A stretch of 64,000 nt of DNA, taken from assembly GCA_030141605.1 (NCBI GenBank), contig JAQGDQ010000055.1, positions 579,001 through 643,000 of the forward strand, in the 5' to 3' direction. This document shows positions 24,401-51,400 of the stretch, piece after piece. Each line of letters opens with the position of its first letter. Position 1 is the stretch's first letter. Origin of the DNA: Tubiluchus corallicola. Lineage: Eukaryota; Priapulida; Priapulimorpha; Priapulimorphida; Tubiluchidae. The notes under the pieces were generated by a model, which saw only the letters and a list, made by a program, of their open reading frames with translations, was not told the origin of the DNA and searched no databases. Both the position numbers and the translations under genes were made by a program.

Positions 24401-27400
24401 TTAGCTCCACTAGCCAGGAAATTTACTCGCTGACAAAGAAAATCAATAACCCCTTTACAGACACCATCACTGAAATTTTTTCCTGGACACTAAGGTCCTA
24501 CTCTGAACATTACCACTTTAACATCTAATTTATCCACACTATATTACAGGAACACTAGTGGTTACAACTTCAGACAGCTGTTCAGTTTGCCTGGTTTCAG
24601 TAACTGCTGTTAAAATTACATACATGGTTATACAAGACCATACATCGAACAACATTTGTTTTTAAATTTGGGATTATACATATAAAGTTTTTGGAGGTTA
24701 GGATGTAGTTATATGCCCGACTAAACAAGGTTAAATGTTGTTACACTGGCGTTAGATACAGTCATATGTAAACAAAGAAGATTAAATGCACCCGCTACAA
24801 TAACAGTGATTAAATGCGAAGCCTATACATGATTAAGTGATTACAATCAAATGTGGTTAAATGTGAGATTATATGCAAAAATATATCTATGTGAGCTCCG
24901 ACCACTGCGAGTGTCAGCTTTTTTTATTATATTTTTTGAGAGCCAATGCTTCACTAAACGAGGAAGCTTTTTTAACTAGGTGACATTTCTAGTGTGCGGC
25001 TGGTACGGCACCAATTACTAGATCAGTGTCTTACTTAGCTCCACTAGCATTGCATGCAATAAATCTAAATATAAATATAAGGGAACAGGGAATTTACTTG
25101 CTGACAAAGAAATTCGATAACCCTATAATGTTAAATTTGACCCGATTGCGCAGAGTTGTTTAAATTTTGGTTTAGTTTCGGTACTGCAGAGGCAATATAA
25201 CTGCGCTTTATCAATAAAGCAATTTTAGACTCTTGTACCATTACATTTTTTGACAAAATTAGTCAAATGGCGGCTTTTTTGATAGTTTTGTTCTTCTTGA
25301 AATAAGTAAATGTCACCATATTCAATCGCGTGTCCAGCTTATGAAGTCCTACACAAAAGCATACATCATGTTGACTGCTAGTTTCAACAAAATGCTAAAA
25401 TGTCTTGTGTTACTTTACCAAAACTGAACCGTATATTTTATTATTGCAGAATTACAGTCAGCCTAGCTGCTCAGGCAGGTCATCTGTACTCTTTTTTTGT
25501 AAAAATCGCTGCTGCCTTATCAATCAGCGATAACTGCATAGCCAAAATTCGAGATTTGAATTCGATTCAATTACGGAAATTATTTTAAAAGTTTGAGACT
25601 TGGATTAGATTCGTGACATACCTAATTGAAGTTTAAGATTTTTTAAGTTGCAACTACGTAATTAGTATGTTTCATATAGTAAATAAAAATCCCTCTAGAC
25701 CTGCAAGTGCATGAAAAATGTGGTGCTCTATGTTACACTTTCCATAGGACCTGCTTGATTCCGTATTTAAAATTCTGGCAATAGTGCCTGGTAATAAAAA
25801 TTGATATCTGTATTATCTCTGTTATTTTCTAAGTAAATTTGTTGAATATAGGACATGCGCAAAAAGTATTGTACAACATTCTACAACTTGCTATTAGGAT
25901 TTTGGAAAGACTTATGCAACTATAAAAAAAATCTTAAGAGTCATTCCGTGAGAAAATCAGCAAAATAGTGGAAGGTGACAAATCACCGATTTTGTTCATG
26001 TTCACAGGGTTTGATGGTCCCCTCAGATGTACCCCACAGCCAAAATATTAGATTTCAGAAATGAGCCGTTTCTGAGAAAAGCCGCCATTTTGATTTTTTT
26101 CGGATTTTGGCCATTTTGGTGTAAAAAATTGCCCATTATTTCTCACGTTATTACAGACAGTAAATGAGCGATCCAGCACTAGTTAATTGGTGATATACAT
26201 AGTAGGGGTCTTACCCTACTGTACCATTATCATTGCCAAATTGAACCTCCTTTTCAGTTGGTGTCATCAGATTGCAAATGATACGTGTCTGCTGCTGCTG
26301 AATTTAGACGCCATTTTGAAATCCCCATAACTCCACTGGGGCGGGTATTGGGGGACTAATCAATATATTTTTATTTGCAACTTGACTAGTCCTACAAATG
26401 CATGAAATAAAATTTTGGCCAGCGATCTCCCAAAAGTCCAGAATTTTTAGCCAAAGTTACTCTTTTTTGCCATTTTTACAACCTTGACCTATATTTAGCC
26501 ATTCGCCTTTGGATGATGGTGTTGCCATTAGAATCGATACAAAGTGCAGCACCGTCAATGTTTATAGTAGTAATGGACTGGCTTTAGATGTCTGGGCACT
26601 CCTAGCAACCAGACCCCTATCAGGGGGCCGCATTCCCTTCGAAGGGCCCCTGTGACGATTACAACATAGTGATTTTTATAATCTGTATAAAACACGGAAT
26701 AGTTTCATGTACATAATAACAGTTTCGTGTACAAGTGCTCGGGCTATATACCTATGGCCCGTGGATCAAGCCGAAAAGTCAGTCAAAAAGGTTTAGTGTT
26801 GCTTTGCTAAACAAGATTCTAAAGTAAGGCGGACAAGGCGAGGCAAGGCACTATTTGTGAAATTGTGTTGAAACCAATGCGAGCATCGAATATAACATGT
26901 TGGGAGCCAATTTTTAAAACGCGCACAGCTTTGTGTGGTCTTGTATTCAACAGGCGAATAGTTGTCAGTCCCTGATATTTTTCCTCAAATCAATTCGAGT
27001 TAATAGTTAGTTAGTTACTAATACCCTGGTGTGGCAACTTTGGCAGCTTCGACAACCAGACTTCTGCTTACTAACAACGGTCATTAACAAAAAAACTGGT
27101 TAAGAAACGCAGCAAAGGCCAGTACGACCCTGCCTCGGCCGTTACATACTAATTCCGACTCTGTGCAACGTATGTTTCAAGCCATTCGCTCATATTGTAT
27201 TTAACCGCCAGGTTTCCACCGTCTCGTAAAGATATACGAATGTACACTGACTACCATATTGAACTAAACTCTAACGAGAATCAAGGCGTTGATGCTTATA
27301 ATCGCAAATTTTCAAAATAACAAAAAGACAACAACAAATTCTTTACGTCCACGACTATTTTTTATTCGCCAATATTCAATGAAAAGTCGCACTATAGTAA

Positions 27401-30400
27401 ATAATAATAAGCTAATAATTGATAATACATACAGTAAGCTGCTACTGTGTGTTGCTATGGTAACCTCCTTATCAAAAGAGACACAGAGAGACAGAGAGAG
27501 ACACAGAGAGACAGAGAGAGACACAGAGAGACAGAGACAGAGAGAGTTACAGAGAGACAGAGAGAGACACATAGAGAGAGACACACAGAGACAGAGAGAG
27601 ACACAGACAGACAGAAAGAGACAGAGGAGAGACACAGAGAGACAGAGACACACAGAGAGACACAGAGAGACACAGATAGAGACACACACAGAGAGAGAGA
27701 GACACACAGAGAGACAGAGAGAGAGACACAGAGAGACAGAGAGACAGAGACAGAGAGAGAGAGAGACACAGTGAGACAGAGAGAGAGAGAGAGACACAGA
27801 GAGATAGAGAGAGACATAGAGAGACACAGAGAGACAGAGAGACACAGAGAGATAGAGAGAGACACAGAGAGACAGAGAGAGAGAGAGAGACACAGAGAGA
27901 GAGAGAGACACAGAGAGATAGAGAGAGACACAGAGAGACAGAGAGAGACACAGAGAGAGAGAGACAGAGTGAGACACAGAGAGACAGAGAGAGAGGCAGA
28001 GAGAGACACGGAGAGACAGAGAGAGACACAGAGAGCAGGCGAGAGACACAGAGAGACAAAGAGAGACACAGAGAGACAGGGAGAGACAAAGAGAGAGACA
28101 CAGAGAGACAGAGAGAGACACAGAGAGACAGAGAGGCAGAAACGGTAATTTATCATTTCTTTTTGAAATTTTCATTTTTTTTATTCAGAATTATGAATAA
28201 TTCGTAGTAATTTTTTTTCGATTTAGGTCACATTCAAGATCGAATCTCGTCAATTTATGGACGAGCTGGCCAAAATTTTATTAATGATCTAGGTATACCT
28301 GGTCAAGCTGTAAATAAACATATATTAATTATACTTCAAATACCCGCCCCAGTGGAGTTATGAGAATTTTAAAACAGGGTGTCATTCAGACTGTAGCAGA
28401 CACGCATCTTTCATGAGCTCATGATACCTACTGAAAGAGAATCTCAATTCATCAAACTCAATGTGGCAATAGGGCAAGACCCCTACTATATATACCACCC
28501 AGCAACTAGTCCTGGATTATTCATTTACTGCCTGTAATGATGTGACAAATATAGGTCATTTTTTTACGTCAAAATGGCCAAAATCCGAAAAATATCAAAA
28601 TGGCGACCTATCTCCGAAACGGCTCATTTTTGATATCTAATATTTTGGCTGTGGGGTACATCTGAGGGGATCATCCAACCCTGTGAATATGAACAAAATC
28701 GGTGATTTGTCACCTTCCACTATTTTTTGACTTTTGCATGGTTTTCTCGCGGAATGACTCTTAATATTTTAAATGTTTGTGCCAACTGGTAAAACGTCAC
28801 TGTCTCGCCATCGCAGTGTGCGTCTCTGGTACATTTAAAATATTATTAATTTTTGTTAACAATATGAAGTAATTTAAACTTTTGCATAGTTGGTGAAGTT
28901 TGTGGTATGAATACCTCTGTTATTTTTCCAAACTTTTCGCACTGTTATCTATACTTGTTTTAAACAACTTTCCGCCTTAAAATGACTGTGCCCGATGGCC
29001 TTTGCAGGAGTTAACATTTACGTTTTATACAGCATTACTGCTAACACAAGCTTTGTATGCAATAAAACAGCATGCAAGTGATACAAAATCGCAAGTCGAT
29101 TTTTTAAACTTTATTTTTGAACCATGTTGAACCGAATTGTTCTTCAAAAATTTTGCAAATGGCATAGATCAATACTGTTTTACAGTAGAACGAAAAAGTT
29201 AATGGAAGCTTTTTTGTGGATTAACAAAAAAACTTGATGTCAGTGATTAGTGTAAGTTGTGGTAAATTTCAAATACCAGCAGTACTTTTTTTATATATCA
29301 TTTTTTGTAATAAAATTGTGGATTGTTATGTAAGTTATGCAAGAATTTACCTCATCAGGATACCAGTCCTTGGCATTTTTAGGTGGCACTGTTTCAAGAT
29401 GACATTGTAGAAGTTGGTTTTAAAAGAATGATATCACTAGCCATTCATCATGAGTTATACATGCCTGGTCAGTTCATTTTCAAGCGTGGCAATCTTGGCG
29501 AAAAAGTGTATTATCTTCATAAAGGACTTATAGAGGTATGAATATGTTTGTCTTGCTTTAAAACTTTTTAGTTAGAACTTTGAAGTCCATGTTCAAGGAA
29601 CTTTTTCCACTCCTAATTTGAGCTTGTAAGAGCAAGTCCACTCATAAATAAATTTATGTAATAGTTGTAAATTCACACCATGTATTTGGTTTAATGTAAA
29701 GGACAAGAAAAGGGGTACCTGAAGTAGGTTTCAGAAAAATCGCCTTAAAAATTATATTACAGCAATTTAATGCGTACATCATACTCGTCTTGAAGGGAAT
29801 ATTTGTTTCTTTTCATTTTATATCTCCCCCAATACTGTTCCGATGGTGCCATTACATGACGTCACTATGTAAATGTAAATCAGGAAAAGAAAAGGAAATG
29901 TTAAACTATGTTTCAAAAAACTTTCCATGCAAATCTATGTTACTTGGCATTTTGCTTACCTGCTTGAAAGACTTATGTATCTGGAAATAATAATTTGAAA
30001 TGTTTGTGCAAATTGGAAAAATGTCGTTGACTCACCCTCCAGGGTGCACCACTCACTAACCAAGAACATATTTTTAATCTTATTGACAAGATACGGAAAT
30101 TTAAAATTTTACTTAGTTAGTAACATTTGTGCCACGCATACTCTGTTTATTTTTCAAACTTCATGCAATGTTATCTAAACTTGCTTTAAACGACCTACCA
30201 TCAAAATGGCTGTGCCTAATGGTTTTCGTGGGAGTTTAAATTTTCAAGTTTTATACAGTGTTGTGGCCAATGTAAGCCCTGCATGCAAAAAGGCACTATG
30301 TAAGTGGTATTAAATTTCAAGACGAATTTTTTAAGCTTGATGGAAGTGGAGGGTTTTTTGTGCTTTAAAAAAAGAGAACAATTTAAAAAATTACAGTTTT

Positions 30401-33400
30401 ATATTTTTGGTTATTAAAAATTAATAAGTATATTGTCTCATCAAGTTTTGTTTTGACTTGTTTTTTGTTTTTCAATATTAGGAAGTCTAGCAGTTTACTA
30501 TAATATTACTTAATTTTGGAAATTACCTTAATTTTTAAAGTTGTCTGCAGTTGGTTTGCTAGTTTGATAGTTATGTAAATAAATGAAGATGTAATATTTG
30601 TACATAATAATAACTCGATTCATGTTTTTAACACATTTCATACAATTTCAAGGTACAGTAGTGTTTACTCTTGTCAATTTTCCAGATTTTTTCTTTCAGT
30701 TCTAATCTGATTAACCTAACTTCCTTCAGAAAGCTATAATACACTTAAGGTTTTCTGTCTATGAGTCAAAAACGTTTTTTCAGCCAAAAATTTGACTTTT
30801 ACATCTATATAAGAGAAGTTCCTACGGTGAATTACAAATAAATAAATAATTAGAGCTTTTTATATCTAGTTTTAAAACGACACTTAGTTGGTAAAACCTA
30901 TGATAATGTGCTGCTGTTTCATTCTGATTCAGTAACCAAAGCTTTTTTGTTTATTTGTTTATTTTTTGGCGAATTATTTAGTTGCAATATATTTCTAGGT
31001 TTTAACTGATGATGATCAGACAACCGTGGCTTTTCTAGAAGAAGGTGTCGTTCTTGGAGAGGTAAACTGGTTTTAATTTATGTAATTTTTGGTAAGCTTT
31101 GTAGCTGTTTTAAAGATCTTTGTTTAGCTTAACGACAGTTTCTAAAACTTTTTAACTTTTTTCAAAAAGATTTTGATATTTTAAAAAATCTAGTCAAACG
31201 CCATTCTTTCTGTGTGATTTAACATAGCTGTCTTCATGACAACCCTGATATGTCTTGTTAGTACTGTTTAGTTTTCAAGTGTTTTTCTGACAAGTATGAT
31301 AGTTTCATGCTAACTGTAATCAATGTTTAACTGCTGTATTTTTATTTTTGCTTACAGTTACATCTTATTTATGCTTTGCCCAAGACAGCATCAGCAAGGG
31401 CTGTAACAAGTTGTTACTTATGGGTGTTAGACAGAAGTAATGCTAGAACAATTTTAAGTTACTATCCTGGTGGTAAGTCAATGAAATTTAATACATAAAA
31501 CTGTAATAAGATAATTGCACTATTTTTTGTTGAATCTGTAGAATATTGTAATTATATAATTTTTTAATAATTTGATGCGCCTGCGTATATTTATACAAAT
31601 CATATATCACATCTGCAGATAACTATGATAATTCTGTAACTGGCTTACTTAAAATTGCAGCAAATTAGTCTTAGATAAGTGCATTTTCAGCTTCGCAGTG
31701 GTGATTTTAAAGAACAGTTAGCTACACTCCACTGTTTTTGCACAGTATGTTGTTTGGACATATTTCCCAAAAACCCCTACATTTGAGAAATTCTTTCAGA
31801 TGATGTTATTATGTATGGTTAGCATCCAAACTTAAGCAATGCTGAAGTGTTAATGAAGAGATGTTAATCAATTACTTCGCTACTCATTCTGGGTAGTCCA
31901 TTTGCCATACTGGCTTAAGTGACTTTGAAATCTTTCTCACTGAGTAAGGCTCTAAGACAGCTCTGCTGCTCCATTTTAATTCATTTTAGAGGAGTTCCTA
32001 TATGAAGATGTTAGGTACCAGTCTTGCTGCAACTGTTCAGCATTACGTAAACTCAGCCTTTGAGTGCTTTTTACTGCTTGCAGGTTCTTGTATAAAACTA
32101 AAAAAAGTATTTGGCCAACATGCAGAACAAGCAATTTTACAGATGTTCTGTTTAACAGAACTTTGTTTCTAAAAAACAGTGACTAGCTCAAGATTTTAGC
32201 AATTTTTTGGCACAAATTGTAAGTGCTTCAACAACTAGCAAAAACCTGCAAATATAGTTGCATACAAACAAAACAAAATTAAAAGTATTAATTGGTATTG
32301 TAATAGTTTAGGTTTAATCAGTCTTAATTAAATGCGTCAGCAAATTACATATACATTAGACACGTAATTTTTTTTATGAAAATTTTGTGACGTGATGGAT
32401 CAAATTCGAAGGTAAAAGTTTGTTTATTTTTAGTTGAGAAACGACTAGTCGAGGTTCTGAAGCAGAGGTGTGTGACAGCAGTTGCTGTGTCACGGACGGT
32501 GCCAAGGCATAAGGTTTTTCTTAAGTTCTGTTACTTTAGTTTTTCCTATGCTGATTTGTAGAAGCGTTGACAACTCAGCATCACTTCTAAATCATTTGTG
32601 CTAACAGTTTTGCTTTTGTGCAACAGTTCTCCTTAAATGGCCTTTCCACACTTCTTTCTTTCTGTTGCATCGTGAAGAGATAACAAGTGAAGATATTTAT
32701 GTGAAGTATCAGCCAATACTGCAAACATTCGGTAGTCAATCTTCCAAATAAATTACTGCAGATATTCTTAACGTCTCAAAAATGCACGCCATAAAATTCA
32801 CGCTGTTTTGGTGTCATCCAAATAAAAACCACTCGTGAAGAGCGAATAAAATGTTGTCTTGCTACACCACCGTGACTGATAGTGTTATTGTTACTGATAG
32901 CATAAATGTGACCTTTTTTAACATTTTAGTTCCTTGTAACATCAGCGTCCAGCACTTGTAGGAGTCAGTGTATTTCCACATAAGTTTCACTGCTGATAGA
33001 GGCTCATTCCATCCTATGCATTGCAATCTCCTTTAGCATTTCCTGCATACCTAAAAGCCTAATATAGTACCCAATTACCATAGCCATTTTAGGGCACAAA
33101 ATGTACATAGATGTCCCTCTAATGAAATTGCCAACACTTTTCCCCACTACTTAGTATCAAGCATAAATCAGCACAGGTATTGGGACATTTTGAAGATTGC
33201 AAACTCATTTTTTTAAACATAAAATAGGTTACCAGGTTTTTGTGACTACTGACTTTGTCCCCCGTATTGTTAAGTGACAATGACATTTGTCATCGTATTG
33301 CACATGTTTGTATCTGCAACTTAAAGTGCACTGCTGCCTGATTTATGGCGGAATTATGAAAAATATTCGTGTGCTCTGTTCTTGAAGTTGTTCTTGTTCT

Positions 33401-36400
33401 GGTTAATTTGCTTTTAGCCTGCTTTTTAATGCTCTTGTTAGTGTAAAAAGAGAAAAGGTCTTGAGGGTTTCCTTTTCGGTTTTTTAACATTCAAAAAAAT
33501 AATTAGTTTTTGCAAAATGGCAAGGTGTTAAATGGGACATTGAAAGAATACAATCCCATCTTCATGTTTACATTGTAATATCTTACTGTGTTTTTGGAAA
33601 TTCAGAACTCATTCAACATAAAACTTCAGACAATCTAGAATAAACTGCAAATCAAGATACGAGAATTGTGCGAACTAAAAAAAATTTGTTGAAATTTTTT
33701 TATGGTGTCTTCATCCAGGTTTACATATTTCGTTGTACAACTTACAATAGTTGAGTGGGTGATTTATTTTTTCTTTGTCTGTTATCTGTTTGTAGCAAGG
33801 GTCTGCAGTCATGTTGAGGAAGCTAGATGAGGGTGATTCTCTAAAACATAACTCATTATCCTATCCATTTGGAGATACAAGAGAGGTTAGTTGGCATAGA
33901 TTACCTTACGCTGTGCAAATAGTATAAAAACTTTTATCTGCATTGCCTTATTAGAACTTTTGGACTTGGCAAAAAAGTAAGACTTAGCAAAACATCCAGA
34001 ATAAGAACAACTAAAAAGTGGACAGAAGGAAAAATCTGACTTTAAGGATTTTTGTGGGTTAGTTTGGTTAGTTACTAAGTGTTTTTCTTGTTAAGTTTAA
34101 AGATCTTTATTTTTTATTTGTTTTCCTTTGCTTTTCCTTTTAGAGAAGTGTAAGTATAGTATCGTTTGACGAAGCAGTTATTCAACTTGAAATTGAAGAT
34201 CAACAAAAGATTCTTGTGCAGGACGAACAGAAGCCGGATGGCGACAAGCATAACATCGTCGTGCCTTCTGCGTCACAGAAGTGGTCTCGTCTGGCAACCG
34301 AGCGCAGAATGTCACAAGCAAGGTCTTCAATGCAAAAACCCCAAAAACCAAAACAACACGAATCTCTTGTTTCTCTTCATATAAGTGAACACAATTTTGA
34401 ACAGACTTCACCAGTCAAGACACATGCGACAAGTGTGGTGACTGAGGTACAAAAAGCCGAAAAGCACAGGCATTCAGAGCCTGCAAGGATGCGCCAGAAT
34501 TACCCCACTGTCATTAAAGAAGTACGAGATAAGCACAAGGTATGGTGTTAAACCTTTCTAGCATCTTCTAGTAAAATGCTGTGTTATAGGGTTGGTATGG
34601 AGTTATTGATTTCTCTGTTTTTTTCTGAAGTATTTCCTGCTTCTCGTTTTGTACAAACTATTGCCACTTGTACCACGCAGTACCTCATGAATGTCATCAA
34701 GTCAAAAAAGCTTCCTGATTCAGTGAAGAGATTGGCTGCTAAAAAAGGTAAAGAGAAAGCTGACGAAGAAGCAGCAACTTTCGGGCAGTCCCTCTGTAAA
34801 CACTCTGTATTTCATGTACTCTGTCTCTGGCGAAGCAGGCTTTAAATTGCTTGAAAGTTTGGCTAATTAGAAAAAGTTATCTCTTTTCGTTCATATTTCA
34901 TATCAAAGTGTTATGGTTGGAAGAGTCAAAATAGAAAAGCGATTTATCTTAAAACAAACAGACTTGAACTCTAAACCTGCAGTTCAGTGTATTTTTGCCA
35001 ATGCAATGTAATACAAAATGATCATGGAAGAGAACTATTAAAAAAAGACCACAATAACAGCTGATTGCAAACCAGATAAAAAGATGCAAGGCTTTACAAT
35101 GTACTGTAATCAAATAAGAGACAAAAATTATTTAAAATATGCATAAAGTTCTTATGTCCAAACTGCAATTGAATGCATAAAATCATTAAAAGAAAGCTGA
35201 TCGATAGAACAGAGACTCGAGCTGGAAGGCGCATTTTCAAATGTACGTTGATGGCTTAACAGAAATCTCTGAAGAATCCAGCTTGAGTTAGGAGTAGAAC
35301 AGCCTCTTTTCTTGTAGCACTTTTGCTTCACTGTCACTGAACCATAAATTAAAAGTATCCTCTCAACTTACCGTGTGTCTGATTTCTTTATAGGAAGGAA
35401 TTAATTTGGTTACACTTTCTGATATGAAGCTGAGAAACCTTGTTACACAGAAGAGAAGAATATCACTTGACTCAGCAGGACGCGACAATGTAAGTGGTTC
35501 AACATACAAACAATTAAAGTATGTTTCATCAGATTGTATGCACAAATTGCATCAGATGGGTTGACCGTTTTTGAAGAAAGAAAACCATTGAAAGAATGTA
35601 GTGAAGAACAGGAAACAATGAAGTTGAAAAATCAAACAAAATTTGTTTTTCAAGAAAACAGCAAATGATATTAAAGATTAAAAAGTTTCTTATTTAAAAC
35701 TCTTTGCCTGTTGTTATTTAAATATGTGTATATAATAAGCTGCATACTGTAAATTTGTGCTTCAGTAACAGTGGCTGAATACAAACACTGTATAGTGGCA
35801 AATATGTCTGGTGAAAAATTCTAATTCTACTTGCACGTACATGCAAAAATATTAAATTCATACCATATTAATTGGAAAATTAGAAGTTGAGGAAACACAT
35901 CAATAATTTTTGAGCGAAATTAGTTTGAAAAAAAATAATTAATGTAGTAATAAATTAATAAATATCGTAATTTCTGTAATATTTTTTTTCATAAATTGTT
36001 TTCACGCGTTTAGGAACAGCAGTTTTTGGCTGAAGCTCAGAAGCGAGAGCAGCAAGAAGCATCTTCTGACCCTGCATCAGCTTCCACGAATATAGAGGTT
36101 TGCTAACAATTATTCATACAGTTAACATTTATGTTTTAATATCATCCGAGAACTTTTTATACAGAACTACGATATGTCTGACCCGTAATAAAAGTACTTC
36201 CCATTTCTTCACACTGAAACTGTGACAGCGCCGTATGAGCTTTGTAGCCAGAAACTCAATTAATTGACAAAACTTAATCAAATTGTTTTACAACCCAACA
36301 GGTTTCTCAGTGATACCGTTTTATACAGGTCTTAGCAATGGCAACAATTTAAGCAATGGGTGCAAATGTCGTTCTTACGGGCACCTGGAAACACTTGTTT

Positions 36401-39400
36401 AAATTCTGTAGTGTAGTTGATCATTATCAGTAATAGGGAGTTGCATCCTGTAAACACCATTGCATTATCTACAAGATGTTGACTACTGTGTGTGAAATAC
36501 AGTATACTGAATGCTTGAATGTAGTAGTCAGTCATTACACTCACTATGTTAGCACCATTTTCCTGACATCAGAATTTTGCTGAATCGTGGCCATTTAAAT
36601 GTACGGCAGTGAGTGCATGCAAACATCTAATAATTTTAACTATAAATGATGGTTTTCTGTCATTGCCTAAGTTTCCCAACTCCACATTCGTCATCATTTT
36701 TATCGTCTGAATAAATTTATAATATTGTTTCATATCACCTTAAAAGCATTATTATCATTAGGTGTCATTGCTTGATTACACTGATTATATTGATATTTGT
36801 CATTGTTATTTTTATTTGGAAATCATGCACTCATTTTACTACAAGCTTTATTATGTTGCTTACACATCTTGTTTGTCTCTCAGATTGTGTTCTTTTGCTT
36901 AGATTAGGATATTTAACTATTTTTGATTTTTGTTAATTGGCAATTAATTATTATTGTTTTGATTGTAATGTTTTTGTTTGTTACTTCATCATCTTTTCGC
37001 TATTGAGTTTTGTGTTTAGTGTAATCAAACCGTCCATCTGTGTGAAAGGACAGGAGACTAGATGATTCTTTGGTCCCTCCTTGTCCTGCTCCACAATTAC
37101 ATTCATTTAATATTGAATTAACATAATTACTGTAAATGACATTGGAGAAAAATAAAACATTCTATGTTCTATGACAGTATTGTGTTGTATCATTATCTTA
37201 TTGCTAATTATAGCATTGTCCCTCTTGCAAAATGCATCGACTAGGGGTGAGCATCAAAAGTTTATAAATTTATAAATTTGAATAATTCAGCACTTCAACC
37301 ACATACGTTCCTTATCATTAAAACGTTTGAAACTTCATACAATTAGCACAATTTAGCCGTGATTTCTGTGTACAATTTTTAAATACATTAGTGATCTTGC
37401 TGCAAAACAAAATCAAATAATATATATGATCTCTGTAAGACTGCTTTTTACTGATGGTTCGAAAACCTGTTTGAAAATCTATTAAACAGAGTTCGAATTC
37501 GAAATACTGAAATTCAGTTTGATTCGAACTCAAAAGTCACACATTCGATTCGATTCGAATTCGCTTTCTAATAGAGAATGCTCAGCCCTAGCATTGACAC
37601 CTCATTTCTTCATAGTGTACTATAAATATACTTTTTCAGCCACAAAAGAGCTTGGTTTATCCAGAAATAGGCTTATTACATTGTGACGCTGATGGTAGTG
37701 ACCTTAATGTTGCAAAACCTGAAGACCTTAATGTTGCGAAACCTGAAGATGTGGATATATATCAGGTTGATATTATTTTGTCATAAAAAAACCATTATTT
37801 GCAAGTTTTCGTATGACATTTTAGATCAATGTTGAAAGTGAAACTGAGTTGCCTGTTTGTGTAAAATAGTTACTTCATCGATTGTCCTAAAAGTTTTTGC
37901 TTTTTACCAAAATCTTTTCTTTACCAAATCTTTGCCAGATTAAATACTAGGAAAATATTTGGTTGTTCTTTTTGAAATTCTTTCTAAACCTTCCGCTTTG
38001 CAAGAAAAATCAATGTTTCACAGAAAAGGTGCAATTTTTTGTTTTGGTATTTTGGTAAGCAAGTCTTCCCTAAGCTACTTAATGTAAATGCTACAACAGA
38101 AAGCTGTATTGTGAACAAGACTCTTCAAACATTTAAGACTTGCTTAAGCTTTAGCTGTCCAGTGGAACATTGCACTAATTATTATACAGAGCAGCACCAT
38201 CAGCACAGACAGGAAGTACAGAGTCTGATGGGTTGATGATAAACAAGCAGAAACAAAGTAGGGCTATTACAGAACCTTGAGGAACACCAACATGGATTTC
38301 ATATATCAATAACATTATTTAATTTTACATACTTCATATTATTTTTTGGAATGTTAAATGCAAATAGAGAGTCGTTGTAGTTTTTGTGTAGAACTTGTAC
38401 CCAATTTCGAACAGCAGATATTTGAATTGTCTTTAAATGACCCGTAAGTAAACAAGTATCTAGTTTGTTGTGGTTTATTTGAAAAATAGAATCAGGTAAC
38501 TTCCAAAAAGTGGGTGCTTTGTATTTCAGTTAACTGTTTTAGCCCTATTTTGGAATTTAAACAGAAGTGAAGCATATAGCTTAGCGACACTAAGTCGAAG
38601 TCTATGACACTAGCTCTGGTTCATAAATAAACAGATGGCCACCAGTAATGTAGCTGATGGGTGACTAGGTTCATTGCTGATGGAGGATTCATATGCATCT
38701 GAACACATAAGACACATAAGATTGTCCTTCATAATGAGCAGGGTTCCACGTTCATCATGATCACGTAGTGGGTGACATATTTCCGCTTGCATCACACTGA
38801 ACTGCATATGAAAAAATCTGACTAGTTGTTATATTTTACGTTACTATATATTGCTGAATTTCTAGCAAATTTATCTTGTGGCACTATAAAACAATGTCTT
38901 TATTGCTCATTAAATTTCCTCTGCGTTTTAATCCACTAAATGATTCTTTTCATTTTTGTTATTTTCGCTATAGTATACTAGTATTAACTTCATATTTTTG
39001 AATTCAGTCCTCTCATTATTTAATATAAGAAAAACACATGAAGTGCAGTTTTTTACATCTCGGCACACCGCAAGCTTACTGCAATCCATCATATTGTAGG
39101 AGGACTTGTTCTGTAAGATATTTGTGGTATGACCAGAAGTGGGCACATTATCAAGGATGCCTCTCTACGATGAGGTCACTCAGCTGGTAGTATTGTCTCG
39201 GGTATTTTCAGATATACACATGTTCTTTCTGAGGTAGCAGTCAAGCATCTCACCTGGAGTGTGTGTCGAGCTGAAGGAAGCCCAATGTGAAATATGCGCA
39301 CTCGCCCCCTCGGCCATGGTCCTCCCATGAGTGTTCAGTGCGAATTTTGTACACTTGTCCTTGGCTATTAATTTAAATTATTTCAGCGAAGACAAAGTAT

Positions 39401-42400
39401 CACGTATCCGGAAATAGATCTTTTGAAGTGTGATTACGATGGTGATTCGTTGGCTGGTGAAAAAGTGGAGCAAGTTGATGTAGAAGAGGTACACATGGTC
39501 TTTTTTTTCAGTTATCATTTAGGCAGTAACCCAATCTGTAAATGTTTGTTCGTAACTTATAAAGTGTAATATCTAATATATGCAGTTATTAACCTGATGT
39601 GCTGATAGCAGAACAGATACCTTGTTTAATGTACATTTGCTTTTTAGTGACATATTTTGTCACTTTCAGCGGAGAAAGAGCCTGGTGTATCCGGAAATTA
39701 GTTTATTAGGAATTGACGTTGAACACGAAGGTGAGGCTGCAATCAAGGAAGAACCCATATACGAAGTTCCCACAGAACCCAAAAGTGCTTACATTGAACC
39801 CAAGGCTGAAGTTTTCATCAAGGAACGAACACCCGAAGCAGTTAAACTGAAAAAAGCTGTTAGTTTTGAAGTTGCGCCTGGGGTTAGCATATTTTCACTA
39901 CTCACTTCACAACATCACATAGTTTTTCTAAATATGTCTTTGCTAAGATAATCGCCATTTAGTACAGATAGTCAAATGTTGATAATAGAATTCAACTTTT
40001 AACAAAAAATTCAGTATTGCATAGATTTTCAAAAGTACAGCATCTTGCATCAGACATTCCAGTCTCATTCAGCACAGAAGAAATCCTGTATTAAACTCCT
40101 GTTGTTTTGTAGAAATGTTAAAGGAAGACAGGATGATTTTTTATATGCTACCCCATTTTCAAGGCCGATAAAAAGTATAAATTTTAACGCAAATAATACT
40201 GCAAAAGTGTTTATGATAATAAAATACTAGATCAAAAACTTAATTAAAGATGAGCGAGCCCAACTCGATAATGATAACATCACAAACTAACATAACTTTT
40301 ACCAGCAAATATATTCCACGAGTGTGTTGCACGTTTTTACGAAAGCAAAAATTTAAGTACAGTGATACTGTAAGATATTCAGTGTGTTGTACTAAAACTA
40401 AGCAAGTTTTATAATAAAAATTCAAATTTCAAATTTACTGTTGTGCTCACACATGAGCTGTCGAATGTGTGTAGTTCGTCACAAACTAACACATCAGGAC
40501 TGGGAGGTACAGCACCTGTTTTTTGTGCAATGCATTTCCGAAATGCGTGCAACAGAGAAGAACTAGTGGCGCGAGCGTGAAATTGTGTTCGTGTGGTAAT
40601 AATTCTTTCAAGTGTGTTTTTTGGAGAAAATTTCTTTTCAATATTTTGAAGATTAGATTGTTTTGAGCTACAGTTTAAGATTGGGCCCAGTTTTGCTTTA
40701 ATGAAGTCTGTTCTATCAACCCAGATATTCACTGCATTGTCACTGGCCAAAAGCACCTGCACCTTATGAAACAAATGGAAATGTTTACTGTTTTTTACTG
40801 ATATATTTAACCTTGCTTGCTCACAGTTCATTAACTGCTAACAACTTAACAATAATGAAACCGCTGAGGCCATGTTAACTGATGACTAAAATCTTCAATT
40901 TACAATAAATTATTCTTAAGCATAAATTTTATTATGCGTATTTGTAGTGTTTGTTGTCACTTGAGGTAACTAGTGTTTTACCTAAAAATTATAAACGAAC
41001 GATTGATGCAGTAAGTTGGTGTTAATTATTAATTATTAAAGGTACGTGTAATTGATAATCAGCAACACATTCAATGCAAAGTAATTCAGCTCCATTAAAA
41101 CTGCAATAACATTTAATAACTTTTTGCAGTCTTGCTAAGTGCCGTTTTTTTCCTTTTTTCAGTCTGTTACGAAAGCCCAAGCTAACGCTCTTAAATCGCA
41201 CATTGAAGGGGTATGTTAACTTTGTTTCAATGTTTGTTTAATATCTTGAGATGCTTCAAGTATTTCGAAAATTAGTTTGAAAAAATCATTTACTAGCAGC
41301 ATAATAATAAACACATACTAGTGATAATGGCGTATGCAAAATGTTATTACTGTTGACGGGTCTATGTTCAGTTTTGCAAATTGTACAAAAATTGTGTCAT
41401 TGTAAATCTTCCAGTTTGGCTCATGGTGGTTCTTACTTGAATGTGTGGAATGTTGATTAACTAAAAAATTCCAATAACTTTTTTATTTGAACATTTTTTA
41501 GTCCAGATATATTTATGCAGAAACTTAATTAAATAAATCAGAGCTAGATGTATATTTTAGTTTACAGCTCCGAAATTGTTGATATTAGCAGCTAGTGATG
41601 AAGTTATTTGCACATATGAGTGTGTATTCAACCATTGGTGAAACGAGCTCTTTTAAACAGTCTAATACCATAGGATGCAGAATAAAAAGTGTAAAAAGGT
41701 GCAAAATGATCGAACTGTGTATGCCGTCTGTCACCTAGTTGGACCTGGATGCAGTTTCATCGCCACGTTATACATAGATTTTTATTTACAAAATTGTAGT
41801 TGGACGACTGTACTTGTTGGTGTCCCAATTCTATTAGTGTTTGGCAACTATGTATGCTTAGAAAACAGTGGATTTGGTTTTAGTTAAATAGCTGTCATAA
41901 TTTAGACTTTAAAATTGTCTTGACACTGAGTGTTCGTGCGTTCGCAATGTGTACTTTGTTTTTGCATTTCTAAGGCTTCATTTCATGCCCCCGTTTCTGA
42001 TTTTTGCATTAAACAGATGAACCAGCTACTGCTTGAGCCTGATAGTAGATTTACAAAGCTGTGGGAGCGATTGATCGTACTGCTGGCTTTGTACGTTTTC
42101 TTTTTCTATACCTACGTTGCGTGTTTTCCTTCTCTGCATGGTCATAAGTTTCTGTACGAGGAACATGGTGGCCCGATAGCTCTCTTGTTTACATACTTAG
42201 TCGAGTCTTTCTTTGTTGCTGACATCATTGTACAGATGAGAACGGCAGTCATTTCTGAACATAGTAAGCTGACAAATTATTATTATTATGTATTAGGAAT
42301 GATTTCTGCTTCCATTTTGAATTTGTCAATATGTATTGCTTGCATTTTTGTGATGCAATGTAATTTATATTAGTATGTAATGTATATTAATAACATTGTG

Positions 42401-45400
42401 TTATTTATGTATCATTTATGCATTTAAACAAATGTATTACTTGTGAAATGCAGTTAAACCAGAAGCAGAAACACCAACAAAAGCATAAAAATCCACGTCT
42501 TTATTTTGATTCGTACATATCCAAAGCTCATCTTCAGTGGTAATAACCAGGATGAGTACTAGAGCTGCTCAAAATGCATTAAAATGAAAATGTGGATTTG
42601 TTACTCACTTCATTTGTGTTTTTGTTTTTTTTTATTTACGCATTTTGTCATAAAGCAGTACCATACAAATGTTATTTTTGAATAATTTTCCGACAACGAG
42701 TATAGTTTTTCATTTCTCCAAACTTAATATGTGTTTTTAGTACCAAAACAAGTTTTAAAGGAAGACAATATTTCAAAGAGTAGATTGTTTTGACGTGCAG
42801 TTTTAGTTTGGGTCCAGTTTTGCTTTAAGTTGAGCTACAGCACTAATAGTGTTTTAGTGGTAGCTGTGCCACTGGTAAATGCACTTTAATTAGTACAGAT
42901 TTGAAATCAGTCAAGTGAAAGGGAAAGTTGGTATATACTGGAGTGGAATGTAAAAAAAGTTTTCTCAGTTTGTTTATTCCCATCTGCCCAGTTGTGCAAT
43001 ATACGTTTCAGCAGAAATAAAACATGTAAAAAAGCTTCTTGAAAACATTTAACAAACTTTGTTGATCATGTATTTTATTGTGTTCAAAACAAAAATTGCC
43101 AAGTAATAATTCACTGAGCTTTAATTTCAACACTGTATGTAATATTAACTGTGAGGGTCTTGAAAAGCTTCGTTAAATGTTTTTCTACCAAAGTTTTGGT
43201 CTGGATTTTTAGGGGTTTTTCGTGATTGGCAGTCGATAAAACGAAACTACCTGATGACAGTCAATTTTGCTTATGACCTCTTATCAGTGATCCCATTTGA
43301 GATTGTCGCAATTGTGATGCATGATCCGATGCCATATTTGACCTATCTTAAGTTGAATCGTTTGCTCAAGTTATGGAAGGTTTGCGTCTCATTTTCTAAT
43401 AGTATATAGTTCGCTAATTATGTACTGTTTTTCGCTACCAGATCAATGAATTAGCATGGGTTTTGGACGATAATACTTAGCAGTTTGTTCCTTTTGTTAT
43501 AACTTTCGTAGCTGATGGTTTTTAAATCAAAAGCTAAAACAAATTTAATGTAGCTGGTAAATATTCTTTAATACATGTTCAGTATTTCTATGTAATATGG
43601 TCATCCCTCACTTGTTATAACGTTTATTTTGTGTCTTCTCTACCATAGGTCGACAGATATTTACCACACACCTGACGTTACTATAAATTTGAAACTTTTA
43701 TGTGTTTAAGAAATAGCGATATTTGTTGATATTTGCCTGCTCCACAAAATATTAGTCACTAAACAACCAACTTACATCCATAATCAGTTAAATTTCAATT
43801 GTAATATGATCTCTCTGACCACTAGACAGTCAAATTTAGTTTTTATTCCTACTGCAAAATCAAATTCTGGTACAAGACAATTTATAGTCAGGGCAAGCAA
43901 GCATTACAATCAGTATGCGATCAAAACCGAATTAATTAAAATTACAAAATTTGAAATATTTAAAAATAAACTCAGGGAATTACTTATAAATAGTCGTTAG
44001 TTACAATGTATTTTATTTTCTTTTAAGTATAATCAAGTTTTATAATTATGCTTTTTTTGTAATATTAATTAGGATGTGCTTTCTTTTTATATTGATTATT
44101 TTATATTTTTTACTTCTATGTACTGTAAACTGTGCAAAGAAAAACCTCATTTATGGGAACTGCACGTGTGATGTAAAATTAAATGGACAAACCTGTACGT
44201 GGGCATTTTCCCATGGTTTTCTCCATCCATATACTTCTGTTTATCGTTTTCTCTGTTGTGTTTGTTGTTTCCTCCCTAAAGAATGTCTTTCTGATGGAAA
44301 TACCACCCATTGGCAGTTTTTTTTGGTATAATGAGGTAGATGTGTTATGAATGTAGTGGTAAATGGAAAGGTCAGGTTTGAGGAAGGGCTGAGTGTACTG
44401 AAAGTCGTTTAGTGTGCGCTCGAGCTGGAATGGATCATGGTGGAACCGTGGAACTTAGTTTGCTGGATGTTCTTCCAATTTTTTCTTAAATGAATCCAGG
44501 GATGTAGTGCATCATATCGTTGTAATGAGGGAATTCTAGTCGTTTAGTCACGGAAAATGAATCTGTTCTTGTTTCTACATGATTAGTGATCTTATAAACG
44601 TGTTTGTTCTCTTGGATGATGTTATATGGCCTTTTTGACTTTTTTAGCTAAGACTTCAGACTTTTTTAGCTAAGACTTCAATAAGCATAGCTGATAAAAC
44701 CAAAAAAATCTTTAGCATCTGGAAAATTGCATTAGCAATCTAATGATGTGATATAATTGTCTACGCAATATTAAAACATCTTGTCCATATGCTGGTCATA
44801 AACTTTGCACTTTTTACAGCACAGCCTTTTTAAAATGTTTTATTGTAAGATTGGACCTACTGGAGGTATTGCTATTATTCTGATTAGCTATTTCTACAGG
44901 CACAAAATTCCATTTTTAGGTAGAACATTATTTTAAGAAGTTGGAGAATCGTCTAGATGTAAGTTTGTCAGCAGTGAGAACAGTACGTTTTCTTATATAT
45001 ATTTTAGCCATAACTCATATAGGAGGTTGCCTTTGGTACCTTATTGCTGGGTGAGTGTTAATAATATATTTTACTTCTACCAGTTAAAAGCTCTGAGTTA
45101 ACTATAGATTTCTCTAATGACTTTGCAAAAATGCTCATTTTTTAAATGTTTGCATACGTTTTTGAAAATATGCTAAACAAACCTATAAATTTTCTACCAT
45201 TTTGTAGATCTTTGGATCTTTTCAAGTTCTACAAATCTCACTATAGTGTTATTAACAATGATAATTATTAGTTGTGTATAGTAGTCTAAGTTACAGGCAG
45301 AAATTTAGACTTGCAAAAACTGGTTAATACTTAAACAAAATACACAGCATCCAGTTTTGATGTTGCTTTGAAGTGACTAATACAGTACCTATTTACAAAA

Positions 45401-48400
45401 AAATGTAGTGTGCATTATATGAAATTTGGTTACCAACATTACTTTCTGGAGCAAATGAGAAATGACCTTTTCAGTTGTATTGCAAGAAATGGCAATGCAC
45501 TCTGTACTCGTATTCTTGCAACCCGGAAATCTTTCCTTTTGCCTTATTAGTTTGATGAATTGACAACCTTTTCATGGGATTTTGAAATATTTCTTATAAT
45601 GATATACGGAATCTACAAGTTTTCCTAGACATGTGTCTGCATTTGTTTACTTAGGACAGCCTATTTTGTGCTGTTTGCGTGATTCCTACTCGTGTGATAT
45701 GAAATGGGTATTTTTTCTGGTATTCTTTCTCAAGTGACAAGCAGAATTTAAAATTGTAACACATACAGAAAGTACATTACTGTACAACTTTTTTGACCCA
45801 GCTACTAAGCCTGTAACTTTTTTAGCATGCATCGTGATCTTTGTGGAATAAGCCTATTATCATTATGGTTTGGTCTTACAAAAAAGGAGAAGCCATTGTG
45901 TTAATTAAGTTGAAGTAAAGCACTGATATAGTTAGTAAACTTCATCGGTTGATGCAATATTTGATACTAATTTACAACACACTACCATGTAGAAATTCTT
46001 GCAAGTCTGTTATAGTACTTTTAAGAAAGTTGTGATGAATTTTGTAAATTATTTTTATAATTTTATCTACTAATGTATGTAAAATTAAATCATTGTGGCC
46101 AGGCATTGTTTGTATTGACAACAAACTGGGTTGTGAAGTAATAATATAGAAATTCAAGTTTTCATGTCACCTTTTTTGCATTTCAAACTTGAGGCAACAT
46201 GTAATTATTCAAAAAAAATAATGCTTTTCAGAAAATGGTTCACAGGTCCAGCGCATGCACACGAGCAATCGTGGCTTTACTGGAGTTTGAAGCGTGACAT
46301 TTGGGTAAGATTGTACTTTTTGTCTTTTTTACATCAGTCCAACGTTGTTTAAGCCAGCATCGCATGTTCACTAGCAATATCTACTGGTAATGTTGAATGG
46401 TTGTGGCAGGAATGGAATCCAGGATAACTGTTGAAGATCTTGAGGTGTGACTTTGAACTTTCCACAAGGTCTTTGTAGTTTACTTTAACATTTGCTGTAA
46501 AATGATGTCTGATGATGGTCATGTCATATGTTGTATTATATTGCACAATAAGCTGTCACTAATGAATTACACTGTTAAGTTCAGAAATGCATAAATGTAA
46601 GTGTTAATATACGAAATAACTGGAAGCAGCATAGCAGATAAAATGCTCAGTTACTAGCTGGGTTTCACGCTGTTTAATTTTCTTTTGCCAAACACACGTG
46701 ACCATTGTTATCCTTGTGTGTGGGACTAAATGTGGCATTTTGAATTCTGTACTTCTTGTCTATATATGTTTGGCTTTCGTAAAACATACTTGAACTGATT
46801 GTACATGAGTGTGCGTGAGTGAAAGTGTGAATGGTTTTGAATTGGTGTGAGTTAAAGGTGTAGATAGACATCTTTTGTTATGAAGCAATAGACATACTGA
46901 TTTGCGTGCTGAGCGGTACTTTTTGCATCATCTAAGCTGCATTTTCAGGCTTCCCGAAGTTTAGAGATGAAATGCAAGTGATGTTTGTGATTTATTTATT
47001 ATAACATTATATATTTAGCAGTTACTGCTTTCTTACTGTGCATAACTGGATTTGTTTTGTTTGAAAGGATATTTTTATCATGAAATTTGACTTATTTGAA
47101 CAAGTGTTCAAGTAAATATTACTATTAGAACTTAGCAAAACTTTTTTCACTTGCGTATTTCTAAGTTTTCTTCAAGTTCAACCATTATATAATTGATAAA
47201 CACTTTTCCTAGTATTTTCATACATTTTGCTGCAATTTTGGAATACTGATACATATTAATTCGTCTATTTTTGCCTACAGCTAACATTGAGTGAGGAACA
47301 GCTTGAGATACTTGAAATTGAGAAGGGAGCATCTACATATTATAGAAAAGGTGCAATGGATGGAGCCATTGCTGACTTTAATGCTCCTTCAAGTATGAGC
47401 CTTGATGACGATGACGAAAACGATCGGGATCACGGTCATGAGGAAGAAGATCATCAGAAATCAGTTAATGGCACTGGAAGTATTTATGCTGTGTCACTGT
47501 ACTGGGCAGCTGTGACCTTGTCGAGTCTTGGATATGGGGACATCACGCCTCATGCGATATATGGCTACATAGTGGCGATAATTGTCATGTTTGCGGGTGT
47601 ACTGTTGTATGGCTTTGTTTTAGCCTACATTGCTGCTTACGCTGCGACTGCTGATGCAGCCCGGTATGTATGGAGACGTTCTTATAGCATCTTGGTCTGT
47701 GTCCCGCACGTTATCATTGTTTCATTTTGACTCTGTTATGTTTTGTTAGGGCATTTTTGCGATTTAAGTAGTAAAACCTTCACTGTAATTTCTGGACATT
47801 GAAAAAACTCTAAGTTATGAACTAATGGTGTGTTTAGCATTGACTACACAAAAGTTGAGTACTAGATACAGCTATAAGAGATGTTTGTTTTGGCTACTTT
47901 AAGTACTGCTCTACAATTTCCCACACTATTCTCTGTATTTAATGAAAGTGGTTCTCATAATGTCTATGTTTCTTGTAACAATCTTGCAAATTTAACAATT
48001 TACATTCTTATTGGAACGTGACAAATCGTAGTGACGATTTTATTGCAGACTGAATGAGGATAAGCTGTTTTTATGAAATTGTGCAATTCGTAACTAGTAA
48101 AAACTGGTTACTTGGAGTACAGTAGCATACTACACTACACTTGAGGCAAAATTTTAAATCAGATGCAAGTATGCAGCTAAGTTCCAGACCACTCGGTTAG
48201 AATGAAACGCTAGAGCCTTCTGATGCATTTTTTTGATTTGAAGATATTTTGCGGATATTATAATGTAAATATTTTTTTCATCAAAAATTTATGTTTTGGT
48301 CACAAACTGTGACTGATCTTGTGCATGCCAAATCTGAAAGCGTTCACTTCCCTAATGCATCCATGTTACGTTAGACTTGTTATCTAATTATTGTGGAAGA

Positions 48401-51400
48401 AACTGTGTGGTTCTGTTATGAATAGTTATTACGCCAAATGTTGCAAGAGTGTTTTGTTGCGCATTTAATTGTAGATCGGTGTTCTACACTGAATATTATT
48501 GTGTCCACTCTTTCTCATAAACCAATCAAATGTGTCCAGAACTCAATACATTTTAACAAAACACTTTTTAGACTTGAACCAATAAAATCATACAAGAATT
48601 GACAATCCTCATAAGTGCGTTCATGATTTTTAAACCACTTCTCAAAGTTATTTGATTTTATTCAGTGTACATCTTGAATCATATAATGAAAAGGATTTTC
48701 ATTTTGCAGTCTTTGCAATTAGCTTATTGTCACTTTAATGTTCTCGCTCTATTTTGCAGTGTGAAGTACCAAACAATGGTAAGTGCTATCAAAAAGTTCA
48801 TGAGTGTGCAGAAATTAAAGCCAGGCTTGCAAAAGCAGGTGGTTGCATACATGACTCAGATATGGTACAAATACAGGTGAGTCAATGTTAACAGTGATTA
48901 AACGAGTTGCACTCAGCTTGCCACATGAATGAGGGGAATGGGATGCAAGGCAAACCAATCATTTGTTTCATAGTAACACTTAGAGTTCTGGAAGAACAAG
49001 CAAATAATAGATGTGCAACGTGTTTGTTTGCTTGCTTTGTTTTTGTTTATAGTGATACATGATAGCGTGTTCATTCACAAATGATTAGCTTACTTGAACA
49101 TGGAAAAAGATTTTCTGGTTTCCTGTGTTATGATATTAGGGTGGCTATTAATCTCATAATGTTGCTGTTACATGCACTTTCCTTTTTGTTTACAGAGGCG
49201 AAGAATTACCAGGGACAAGGCAGAAGATATACTCAGACCTCCCTTCCAATTTGCAGCAAGACATTGCCATTTCAGAAGCTGCACTTTTTCTAGAGGTAAT
49301 GCTATCACTTTTTTCAGGACTGGCAATAATTCTTAAAAAAATTATTTTAAGTTTTTATTGTCAGGCAGGGCCAAATTAACACTTAAGCAAACTTAGCATG
49401 TGCTTATTGCACCAATGCTCAGGTGGCAATGTTTGGACTTTACGGAGACAAACAAACAAATCATCATTTTGCTCAGTATAACTGTTTATTGTTTGTACCA
49501 TTTTGATGTCACATGCCCCTTAGTCATTTTCTTCATCATATATGACACTGTGACGCCATAACCCAAAATATTACATTTTATCTGAAATAAGATATAAATT
49601 TCTTTAATAAACTAATTCATTTCTACCAAAACATCGATTATGATTAAGCGAAATTAATGAGAGTAAATAAAAAAATGACTAAATAAAATTTACGTACATC
49701 GTTGGCATTAAATCGTGAGTTCACAGAAACCCGTCATCACATGAACACCTTGAAACTTAAAATGACCGGAAATTCACTAGGATGTAAATATTGAGGCCAG
49801 GTGTCGCCACTTGTAACTGTATGGCTATACTAAATTTGACAAACAAAATCCTTGACAGGCAAAAAATAAATAGAAAAAAAAGACAATAAAATCTTTCACA
49901 GTTCAAATTGGTAATTGGCTACAGATGCACCATGGCTGGATTGTTTTTTATACCATTACATAGCACCACAGTAGCATCTTCACCTTTTATCACCTATTGC
50001 CATGGCAAGTTGGCAGCACTGTAACCACAACATCTGCAACAGTTATTAACTGAGATCCCAGAGCAGAAAGTTTCACGATCAATGGCTCACACAGTGCTTG
50101 TGATTACGCGGTCACTTTAACTTCCTGTTAACTCCTTAGGTCCGCCTGATTCAGAATAGGTCTTTTAAGATCTATGACTTTCCTGGGACTGTATGAGCAC
50201 AGATATAACTAAATAATTACAAATTAGGTAGTGTTTTATTCCGAAGAATATCGGCTATCCAATCCAAAATTAAGAAAAATGCCCTTTTCAGGCACTCCAA
50301 TTTAGCCTGTTGAGTAGCTTAGACTGGTGTACACTTGGGTGATCATACACACTAATTTATTGATCGCCTGTTTGCTACAGCTCAAGCTGTGCAGTTTTCT
50401 GCTGCTTTTCATCGAAAAACCAACCAACCAGCCAAGGATAAATTAAAGTTGTTTCATCGTTTAACAGGAATTTCTCCTCAAAAAACAAAGTAGATTTGAG
50501 GCCAAAGCAAATCGGTATTTTTCTTTACATGTGGTTGTATTTGCATTTGCGTATTCAGAACTTAACCATAATTGTGACGTCACGAAGCCATGATTGCTTG
50601 GTTGAGCTGAGTCCCTTTCATCCTTGATACAGTAGTCTTGAATACACCTGCACTATTATAATAGCGCTAAAGATTTTCCCATTGCGATTCTGACAAACAG
50701 ATGCAGGTTTGTCAATTCCAGAAAACTGAGTAGGAATTCAGAAAATTTCGTTGTTGAAGGTTGCGTTGTAAAGAAACGATAGCAAAAATGATCGATTGAT
50801 GATCAGGTTTGAGAAAATGATTGCAATGATTTGTGCAGTCGTAGAATTTGATCGTGTTCACAATGATTACAACAACTGCAGGGTCGGTTTTTTGACAGGG
50901 TCTACCCCAGTTTTCAAAATTTTCCAAAAGTATCGATGAAAAAATTGCTTCTGGAACTAATTAGTTATTGCATAGATTGTAAATACTTTGCCTGAATTAC
51001 AGTCCTAACTAACATAGATAGGATAAAAAAAATTAACTGAAAAAGACTAGCATTAAATGAAGTACCGTATTTTCCCGTGTATAAGAGACCCTTGTGTATA
51101 AGAGACCCCTTCAATTTTTAGGCAAAAATTCTGGAAAAAAGTTTTTTCAGACGGACATTTTTAGAGGGTAAAGTACAACTTTTTTCAACTCAGTGCGGTA
51201 CTGAAAACAAAATAAAACCAGTTAATGTGTTGTAGAAAAAGAGTACTGGTATATATTAAAGTGCGTACCTGCAAACCTGTAACAGGAAAAGAGAAAACGA
51301 GGAGATAATGCCTGTGTCACGATGCTTGTATTGCTTACAACCGCTTCATAGTCGAACGCCACACGCAAAACAGTTGTAGAGCACTTATTTCTTTAAAATC

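Follow-up and report, generated by a model that had tools for sequence, protein, structure and literature searches.

We show here, at the level of predicted exons, that a stretch of the Tubiluchus corallicola genome carries three old, diverged duplicate exons in the linker between repeats I and II of a CNGK (tetraKCNG) channel gene, and that this linker is long in only this one of three clustered genes. The stretch (hereafter the window, 64,000 nucleotides in full) corresponds to positions 579001-643000 of contig C162 and contains most of the gene on its plus strand. The three exons, called A, B and C below, share the core S-[LI]-x-Y-P-E-I-x-L-L.

Three duplicated exons in the I-II linker

The motif exons are the following (window positions):
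37640..37765, plus strand: exon A, phase 0-0, 126 nucleotides (nt), 42 amino acids (aa), PQKSLVYPEIGLLHCDADGSDLNVAKPEDLNVAKPEDVDIYQ; motif without a dibasic site
39387..39488, plus strand: exon B, phase 0-0, 102 nt, 34 aa, RRQSITYPEIDLLKCDYDGDSLAGEKVEQVDVEE; motif with RRQS
39670..39882, plus strand: exon C, phase 0-0, 213 nt, 71 aa, beginning RRKSLVYPEISLL; motif with RRKS

Their translations start with PQKSLVYPEIGLLHCDADG, RRQSITYPEIDLLKCDYDG and RRKSLVYPEISLLGIDVEHEG, respectively. All have AG/GT borders, with ttcag before each exon and the donors gttgat, gtacac and gttagc in that order; exon usage is read here from splice sites and open frames. These bear out the original prediction of three phase 0-0 exons carrying a YPEI motif. 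The C-D-x-D-G pattern that it attributed to the first two exons is real, and a looser version is present in the third. Phase 0-0 is not peculiar to A, B and C, as it is shared by each of the seven linker exons called between 34144 and 41163.

Pairwise local alignment gave scores of 74 (A-B), 57 (A-C) and 60 (B-C), with z values of 12.1, 8.5 and 11.2, and none of 2000 shuffles reached any of these scores. This pair similarity supports the exon duplication proposed earlier. Ten columns are invariant in a MAFFT alignment of the three exons: S4, Y7, P8, E9, I10, L12, L13, D16, K26 and E28.

All three pairs are at or close to saturation at the synonymous sites of the motif. The introns flanking the exons align no better than shuffled DNA, the single high score (downstream of B versus upstream of C) coming from one and the same intron. 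For these two reasons the exon duplications are considered old and a recent origin was rejected. Within exon A, 24 bp are duplicated in tandem and in frame (window positions 37700-37747, one mismatch) and encode the 8-aa DLNVAKPE twice; this duplication is apparently much younger than those of the exons.

In codons 4-13, synonymous change exceeded non-synonymous change for A-B (Fisher test, p = 0.0086) and A-C (p = 0.0008). Outside this core the same test, performed throughout on rounded counts, gave 0.25 for A-B, 0.17 for A-C and 0.0016 for B-C, synonymous differences in the latter being capped at the number of sites. Compared with the remaining codons, the core had less non-synonymous change in A-C (p < 0.0001) and B-C (p = 0.049), the difference in A-B not being significant (p = 0.15). 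Comparison of the copies thus gives good but not uniform indications of selection on the motif, two of the three comparisons appearing constrained.

Further copies were searched for at several scales. In a six-frame profile scan of the window the three copies scored 49.7-52.3 and the next match 22.0; the maxima in 20 simulated 64-kb windows were 20.7-29.0, and no fourth copy in the window rose above them. The 110 kb of C162:641001-751000, scanned with the profile on both strands, gave a best score of 20.7, inside the null range of the 64-kb windows. The whole assembly (343.5 Mb, 2344 contigs) was then examined with an exact DNA pattern for the core: a first codon for S, T or a few other residues, then I/L/M/F, any residue, Y, P, E/D, I, any residue, L/F and L/F. 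Seven matches were obtained, three of which are exons A-C. Since the reversed control pattern gives 9, the other four are at chance level; they have neither RRxS nor an AG acceptor at the corresponding place. Prokaryote and viral contigs contain stretches fitting the pattern and no confirmed relative, as expected for an animal gene, and no publication on such a motif turned up in the literature passages available.

The other linker exons were tried as members of the same family and rejected: p was 0.07-0.22 for the exon at 33809, which holds SLSYP, a weak look-alike of the motif, 0.21-0.62 for 34144, 0.25-0.89 for 35394 and 0.30-0.97 for 36014. Among the 36 exon pairs tested, p was below 0.02 in two pairs other than A-B, A-C and B-C, namely 33809 with the exon of the cyclic-nucleotide-binding domain (CNBD) of repeat II (0.012) and B with 41163 (0.0035). 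In the first of these pairs, the tails after CNBD-I (SLKHNSLSYP, window 33885 region) and CNBD-II (SLVHNSARTP, 53365 region) look alike, with p = 0.012 as one of 36 pairs.

The host gene and its two sister genes

The I-II linker of the window gene measures 381 aa in eight hand-called exons, one of phase 1-0 followed by seven of phase 0-0. Besides A, B and C, the gene comprises in the window:
17628..31472, plus strand: repeat I, several exons, with Ion_trans and cNMP_binding domains
33809..33885, plus strand: first linker exon, phase 1-0, right after CNBD-I, VMLRKLDEGDSLKHNSLSYPFGDTRE; acceptor inferred from phase
34144..34539, plus strand: linker exon, phase 0-0, 132 aa, contains RRMS
35394..35489, plus strand: linker exon, phase 0-0, contains KRRISL
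36014..36097, plus strand: linker exon, phase 0-0, recognised by eye (splice sites, open frame)
41163..41210, plus strand: last linker exon, phase 0-0, SVTKAQANALKSHIEG; recognised by eye (splice sites, open frame)
42017..53365, plus strand: repeat II, several exons, with GYGD filter and CNBD
54681..58460, plus strand: II-III linker and membrane part of repeat III

Pfam matches were Ion_trans (3.7e-12) and cNMP_binding (2.6e-14) for repeat I, and Ion_trans (1e-23) and cNMP_binding (4.3e-16) for repeat II; they support the position of the motif between these two repeats. The best solved relative of the pore-to-CNBD part of repeat I is the bacterial channel SthK (8.9e-40). Beyond the window end, CNBD-III was read from open frames, and repeat IV was found in pieces by tblastn at C162 ~651.8-658.7k on the same strand. 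There are consequently four homologous repeats of six transmembrane segments (6TM) in what we assume to be one continuous transcript. The potassium filter GYGD occurs in repeats II, III and IV and, split by an intron, in repeat I, and a CNBD follows every repeat (I and II by Pfam, III from open frames, IV by tblastn). Judged by these features, the gene is a four-repeat CNGK-type channel. A tree built from 12 pore segments had poor resolution, with no branch starred.

Two other frames were noted by eye on the minus strand of the window: a 719-aa single open frame at 11239-13395 that resembles a beta-galactosidase-type glycosidase, and reverse-transcriptase-like fragments at 61287-62774, between the membrane exons of repeat III and CNBD-III.

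The window gene (gene 1) belongs to a cluster of three CNGK-type four-repeat genes extending on C162 from its own start at 596.6k to ~755.7k. Genes 1 and 2 are convergent (plus, minus) and genes 2 and 3 divergent (minus, plus):
C162 start 709327 down to at least 661.8k, minus strand: gene 2
C162 start 712950 to at least 755.7k, plus strand: gene 3

The I-II linkers of the sister genes, likewise hand-called, are 60 aa in gene 2 and 74 aa in gene 3. Each consists of a phase 1-0 and a phase 0-0 exon, so that a phase 1-0 exon stands at the corresponding place in all three genes. In gene 3 it is preceded by an inferred GC donor: at the end of the CNBD-I exon (C162 ~719.79k) the sequence is GAAG|GCAAGT, with GC and not GT. 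The filters of gene 3 read GFG in repeats I-III, the one in repeat I being split by an inferred intron, and repeat IV has GIGS at the filter position. The YP dipeptide and RRx[ST] are both absent from the called I-II linkers of genes 2 and 3, and the profile scan gave no YPEI-like copy in either linker region, where exons were called by eye and one may have been overlooked. With hand-called exons, linker expansion is therefore shown to be specific to gene 1 within the cluster. The simplest inference from this comparison is an ancestral short linker of two exons that became longer in gene 1, the alternative being a loss in both sisters.

A protein search of the whole genome with repeat II gave at least 33 matches at E <= 0.001: C162 has 26 of them, and the other 7 are spread over five further contigs. 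The two strongest of these contigs, C99 and C1834, were examined and encode CNG-type channels with a TIGETP filter; the matches on C1761, C1560 and C1881 are weak. No four-repeat gene outside C162 was apparent among the matches examined. On C162 itself, tblastn of 751001-791000 and 559001-579000 added only CNBD pieces, at 754.8-755.7k.

Candidate kinase sites and short linear motifs

Exon B starts with R-R-Q-S-I and exon C with R-R-K-S-L, that is, both with a dibasic R-R-x-S-[IL] site, a feature that the original prediction did not point out. The substrate consensus of PKA and PKG is R-R-x-S/T with a hydrophobic residue after it. When the 1,717-aa hand-joined product of repeats I-III was examined, four RRx[ST] sites were found in the linker (RRMS, RRIS, RRQS and RRKS) and none in the other 1,336 aa. 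Shuffled linkers contained at least four such sites in 1 of 100,000 cases, and at least three, as when the duplicated pair is counted once, at a frequency of 2.6e-4. The hydrophobic residue is present in RRISL, RRQSI and RRKSL and missing after RRMS. Docking to a partner protein or kinase had been offered as a guess in the original prediction; with the dibasic site, a kinase target would be the more direct reading of the motif exons than kinase docking.

The linker had no Pfam match above cut-off, and exons A-C together had no PDB match at E <= 10. An AlphaFold model for exon B, in which A and C served as rows, placed no helix or strand over the motif (mean predicted local distance difference test score, pLDDT, 69.8; predicted template modelling score, pTM, 0.15). 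These null searches and the low-confidence model, weak evidence in itself, are consistent with a short linear motif.

Several linear-motif patterns were compared with the gene. Acidic dileucine, LxVP and SILK patterns had no match in the linker. RVxF-like matches for PP1 were KAVSF, in exon C outside the motif, and RTVRF in repeat II. A loose 14-3-3-like pattern matched once in repeat III and also in exon B, at RQSITYP, where the target residue is T. Calcineurin docking follows a pattern of the type P-x-I-x-I-[TSHDEQNKR]. In its relaxed form this gave a partial match in copies B and C only, and it was rejected: PEIDL and PEISL fit the first five relaxed positions, PEIGL does not, and the sixth residue is L in all copies. 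The ciliary RVxP signal is likewise absent by eye, since the copies read SLVYPE, SITYPE and SLVYPE, with no R before V and a T in copy B.

Interpretation of the exon array

We tentatively propose, as the likeliest of the readings considered, that the linker is a flexible, phosphorylation-regulated segment with a duplicated phospho-dependent docking cassette; of this we infer the kinase use, the partner and the effect on gating. PKA or PKG would phosphorylate the serines of the dibasic R-R-x-S sites, two of which stand at the start of the duplicated cassette. The adjoining S-x-x-Y-P-E-I-x-L-L peptide would then serve as a phospho-dependent docking strip, two or three cassette copies would permit graded or bivalent binding, and this binding would tune channel opening or channel placement. 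A more specific version, which we regard as unlikely in its entirety, is that exon duplication gave gene 1 an array of phospho-switch cassettes (R-R-x-S-[IL]-x-Y-P-E-I-x-L-L). A multivalent docking peptide, of a class that our searches did not return, would then link the channel, itself opened by cyclic nucleotides, to those kinases in its cell that depend on cyclic nucleotides.

Precedents, by analogy, may be seen in the control of other channels by PKA. The regulatory (R) domain of CFTR contains PKA and PKC sites, according to PMC8004680. It lies in the cytosol between the two halves of the channel and carries several PKA sites, a functional parallel to the linker drawn without any claim of homology; here, in contrast, part of the site array comes from exon duplication and is joined to a YPEI core. 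In Nav channels PKA sites cluster in the I-II linker; here too, kinases act on a linker that joins two repeats of a four-repeat channel. This is also a functional parallel, the window gene being a potassium channel with CNBDs. Regulation of Nav1.2 by PKA is stated in PMC4633509.

Several observations weigh against phosphorylation-dependent docking. Exon A has no dibasic site, which leaves a kinase site in two of the three copies only, and RRx[ST] is a short consensus. The count of these sites leaves out the III-IV linker, repeat IV and the C-terminus, and among downstream open stretches two unassigned ones contain RRx[ST], one of them being a wrong frame over a repeat IV exon. For B-C, constraint on codons 4-13 is not significant (p = 0.086) and appears outside the core instead of inside it. 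The two sister genes seem to lack both motif and long linker, and this also speaks against a conserved CNGK function of the motif. Lastly, the passages available from the CNGK literature mention no such kinase regulation.

The absence of the motif from the paralogues would be equally expected if the linker had grown under neutral or weak constraint, a flexible and fast-evolving segment gaining phase 0-0 exons by duplication around a peptide with no specific partner. The roughly five- to six-fold difference in linker length among the paralogues (381, 60 and 74 aa), the seven phase 0-0 exons from 34144 to 41163, which could be freely gained or lost, and the further 8-aa tandem duplication in exon A all fit such growth. 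We nevertheless consider it somewhat unlikely, as the 10 columns are invariant in all three copies despite saturated or nearly saturated synonymous sites, and non-synonymous change in the core is low in A-B and A-C. Alternative use of the exons, included one or two at a time to give isoforms differing in the number of kinase sites, would stay in frame in every combination, the lengths being multiples of three and the phases 0-0. The non-consensus donors of A (gttgat) and C (gttagc) and the difference between A (no RR) and B and C (RR) would suit it as well. With unequal lengths (42, 34 and 71 aa) and a frame that does not force exclusion, it seems quite improbable. Homologous exons close together in one gene are also found for Snap25 exon 5, but in contrast to Snap25-type duplicates exons A-C differ in length and their frame does not impose mutually exclusive use.

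Motif copies might instead sort the channel to the flagellum. Yxx-phi is a sorting pattern that YPEI fits, and the motif copies account for three of its four matches in the linker; the pattern is, however, very common and matches 19 times in the remaining 1,336 aa of the hand-joined repeats I-III. In copies A and C, V-Y-P-E agrees with the V-x-P element of ciliary targeting signals, yet copy B has T-Y-P and no copy carries the R that RVxP demands. Ciliary trafficking of olfactory CNG channels requires CNGB1b, the bearer of an RVxP motif (PMC4457158), and Ciona tetraKCNG is located along the flagellum (PMC8835908), both of which favour a trafficking role. Such a role would leave the conserved S, L12 and L13 unexplained and has no counterpart signal found in the paralogues, and we judge it improbable. 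Very improbable, finally, is a copy or mimic of CNBD helix C, whose start (Y-P-E/D/G-I/V) the motif resembles and in whose place it could dock. The spliced CNBD-I tails of the three genes read YYPGV, YYPDI and IYPEV, CNBD-III of gene 1 reads RFPEV, and exon B aligned to the CNBD-I tail with p = 0.0007-0.002, borderline among 18 tail-exon pairs. Against that same tail A (p 0.25-0.35) and C (p 0.13-0.14) were not above chance, nor were A, B and C against the CNBD-II and CNBD-III tails. Inspection by eye also shows a different hydrophobic register, and in the model of exon B no helix covers the motif. On the alignments and the model, an origin from helix C was mostly rejected.

Known CNGK/tetraKCNG channels of sea urchin, zebrafish, Ciona and choanoflagellate likewise have four repeats of 6TM, potassium filter and CNBD in one gene. 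Potassium selectivity and gating by cGMP (or pH) in sperm also belong to the definition of this class. What differs here is that there are three clustered genes, only one of which has a 381-aa I-II linker with a repeated motif. No repeated motif in a CNGK I-II linker is described in the available passages of PMC4749565, PMC8835908, PMC7576140, PMC4633509, PMC8004680 and PMC4457158, subscription literature having been mostly outside the search. On present sequence comparison, the YPEI exon array looks like a gene-specific addition.

If nothing binds the motif, the array would be an ordinary example of linker growth. If the proposed cassette reading is true, the array would illustrate clearly how exon duplication can multiply a short linear motif within the linker of a channel. 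Were the cassettes phosphorylated and bound by a partner, one second messenger would act twice on the same channel, directly via the CNBDs and indirectly via the duplicated kinase sites. The presence in one genome of two sister genes without the long linker makes this reading testable by comparison of the paralogues.

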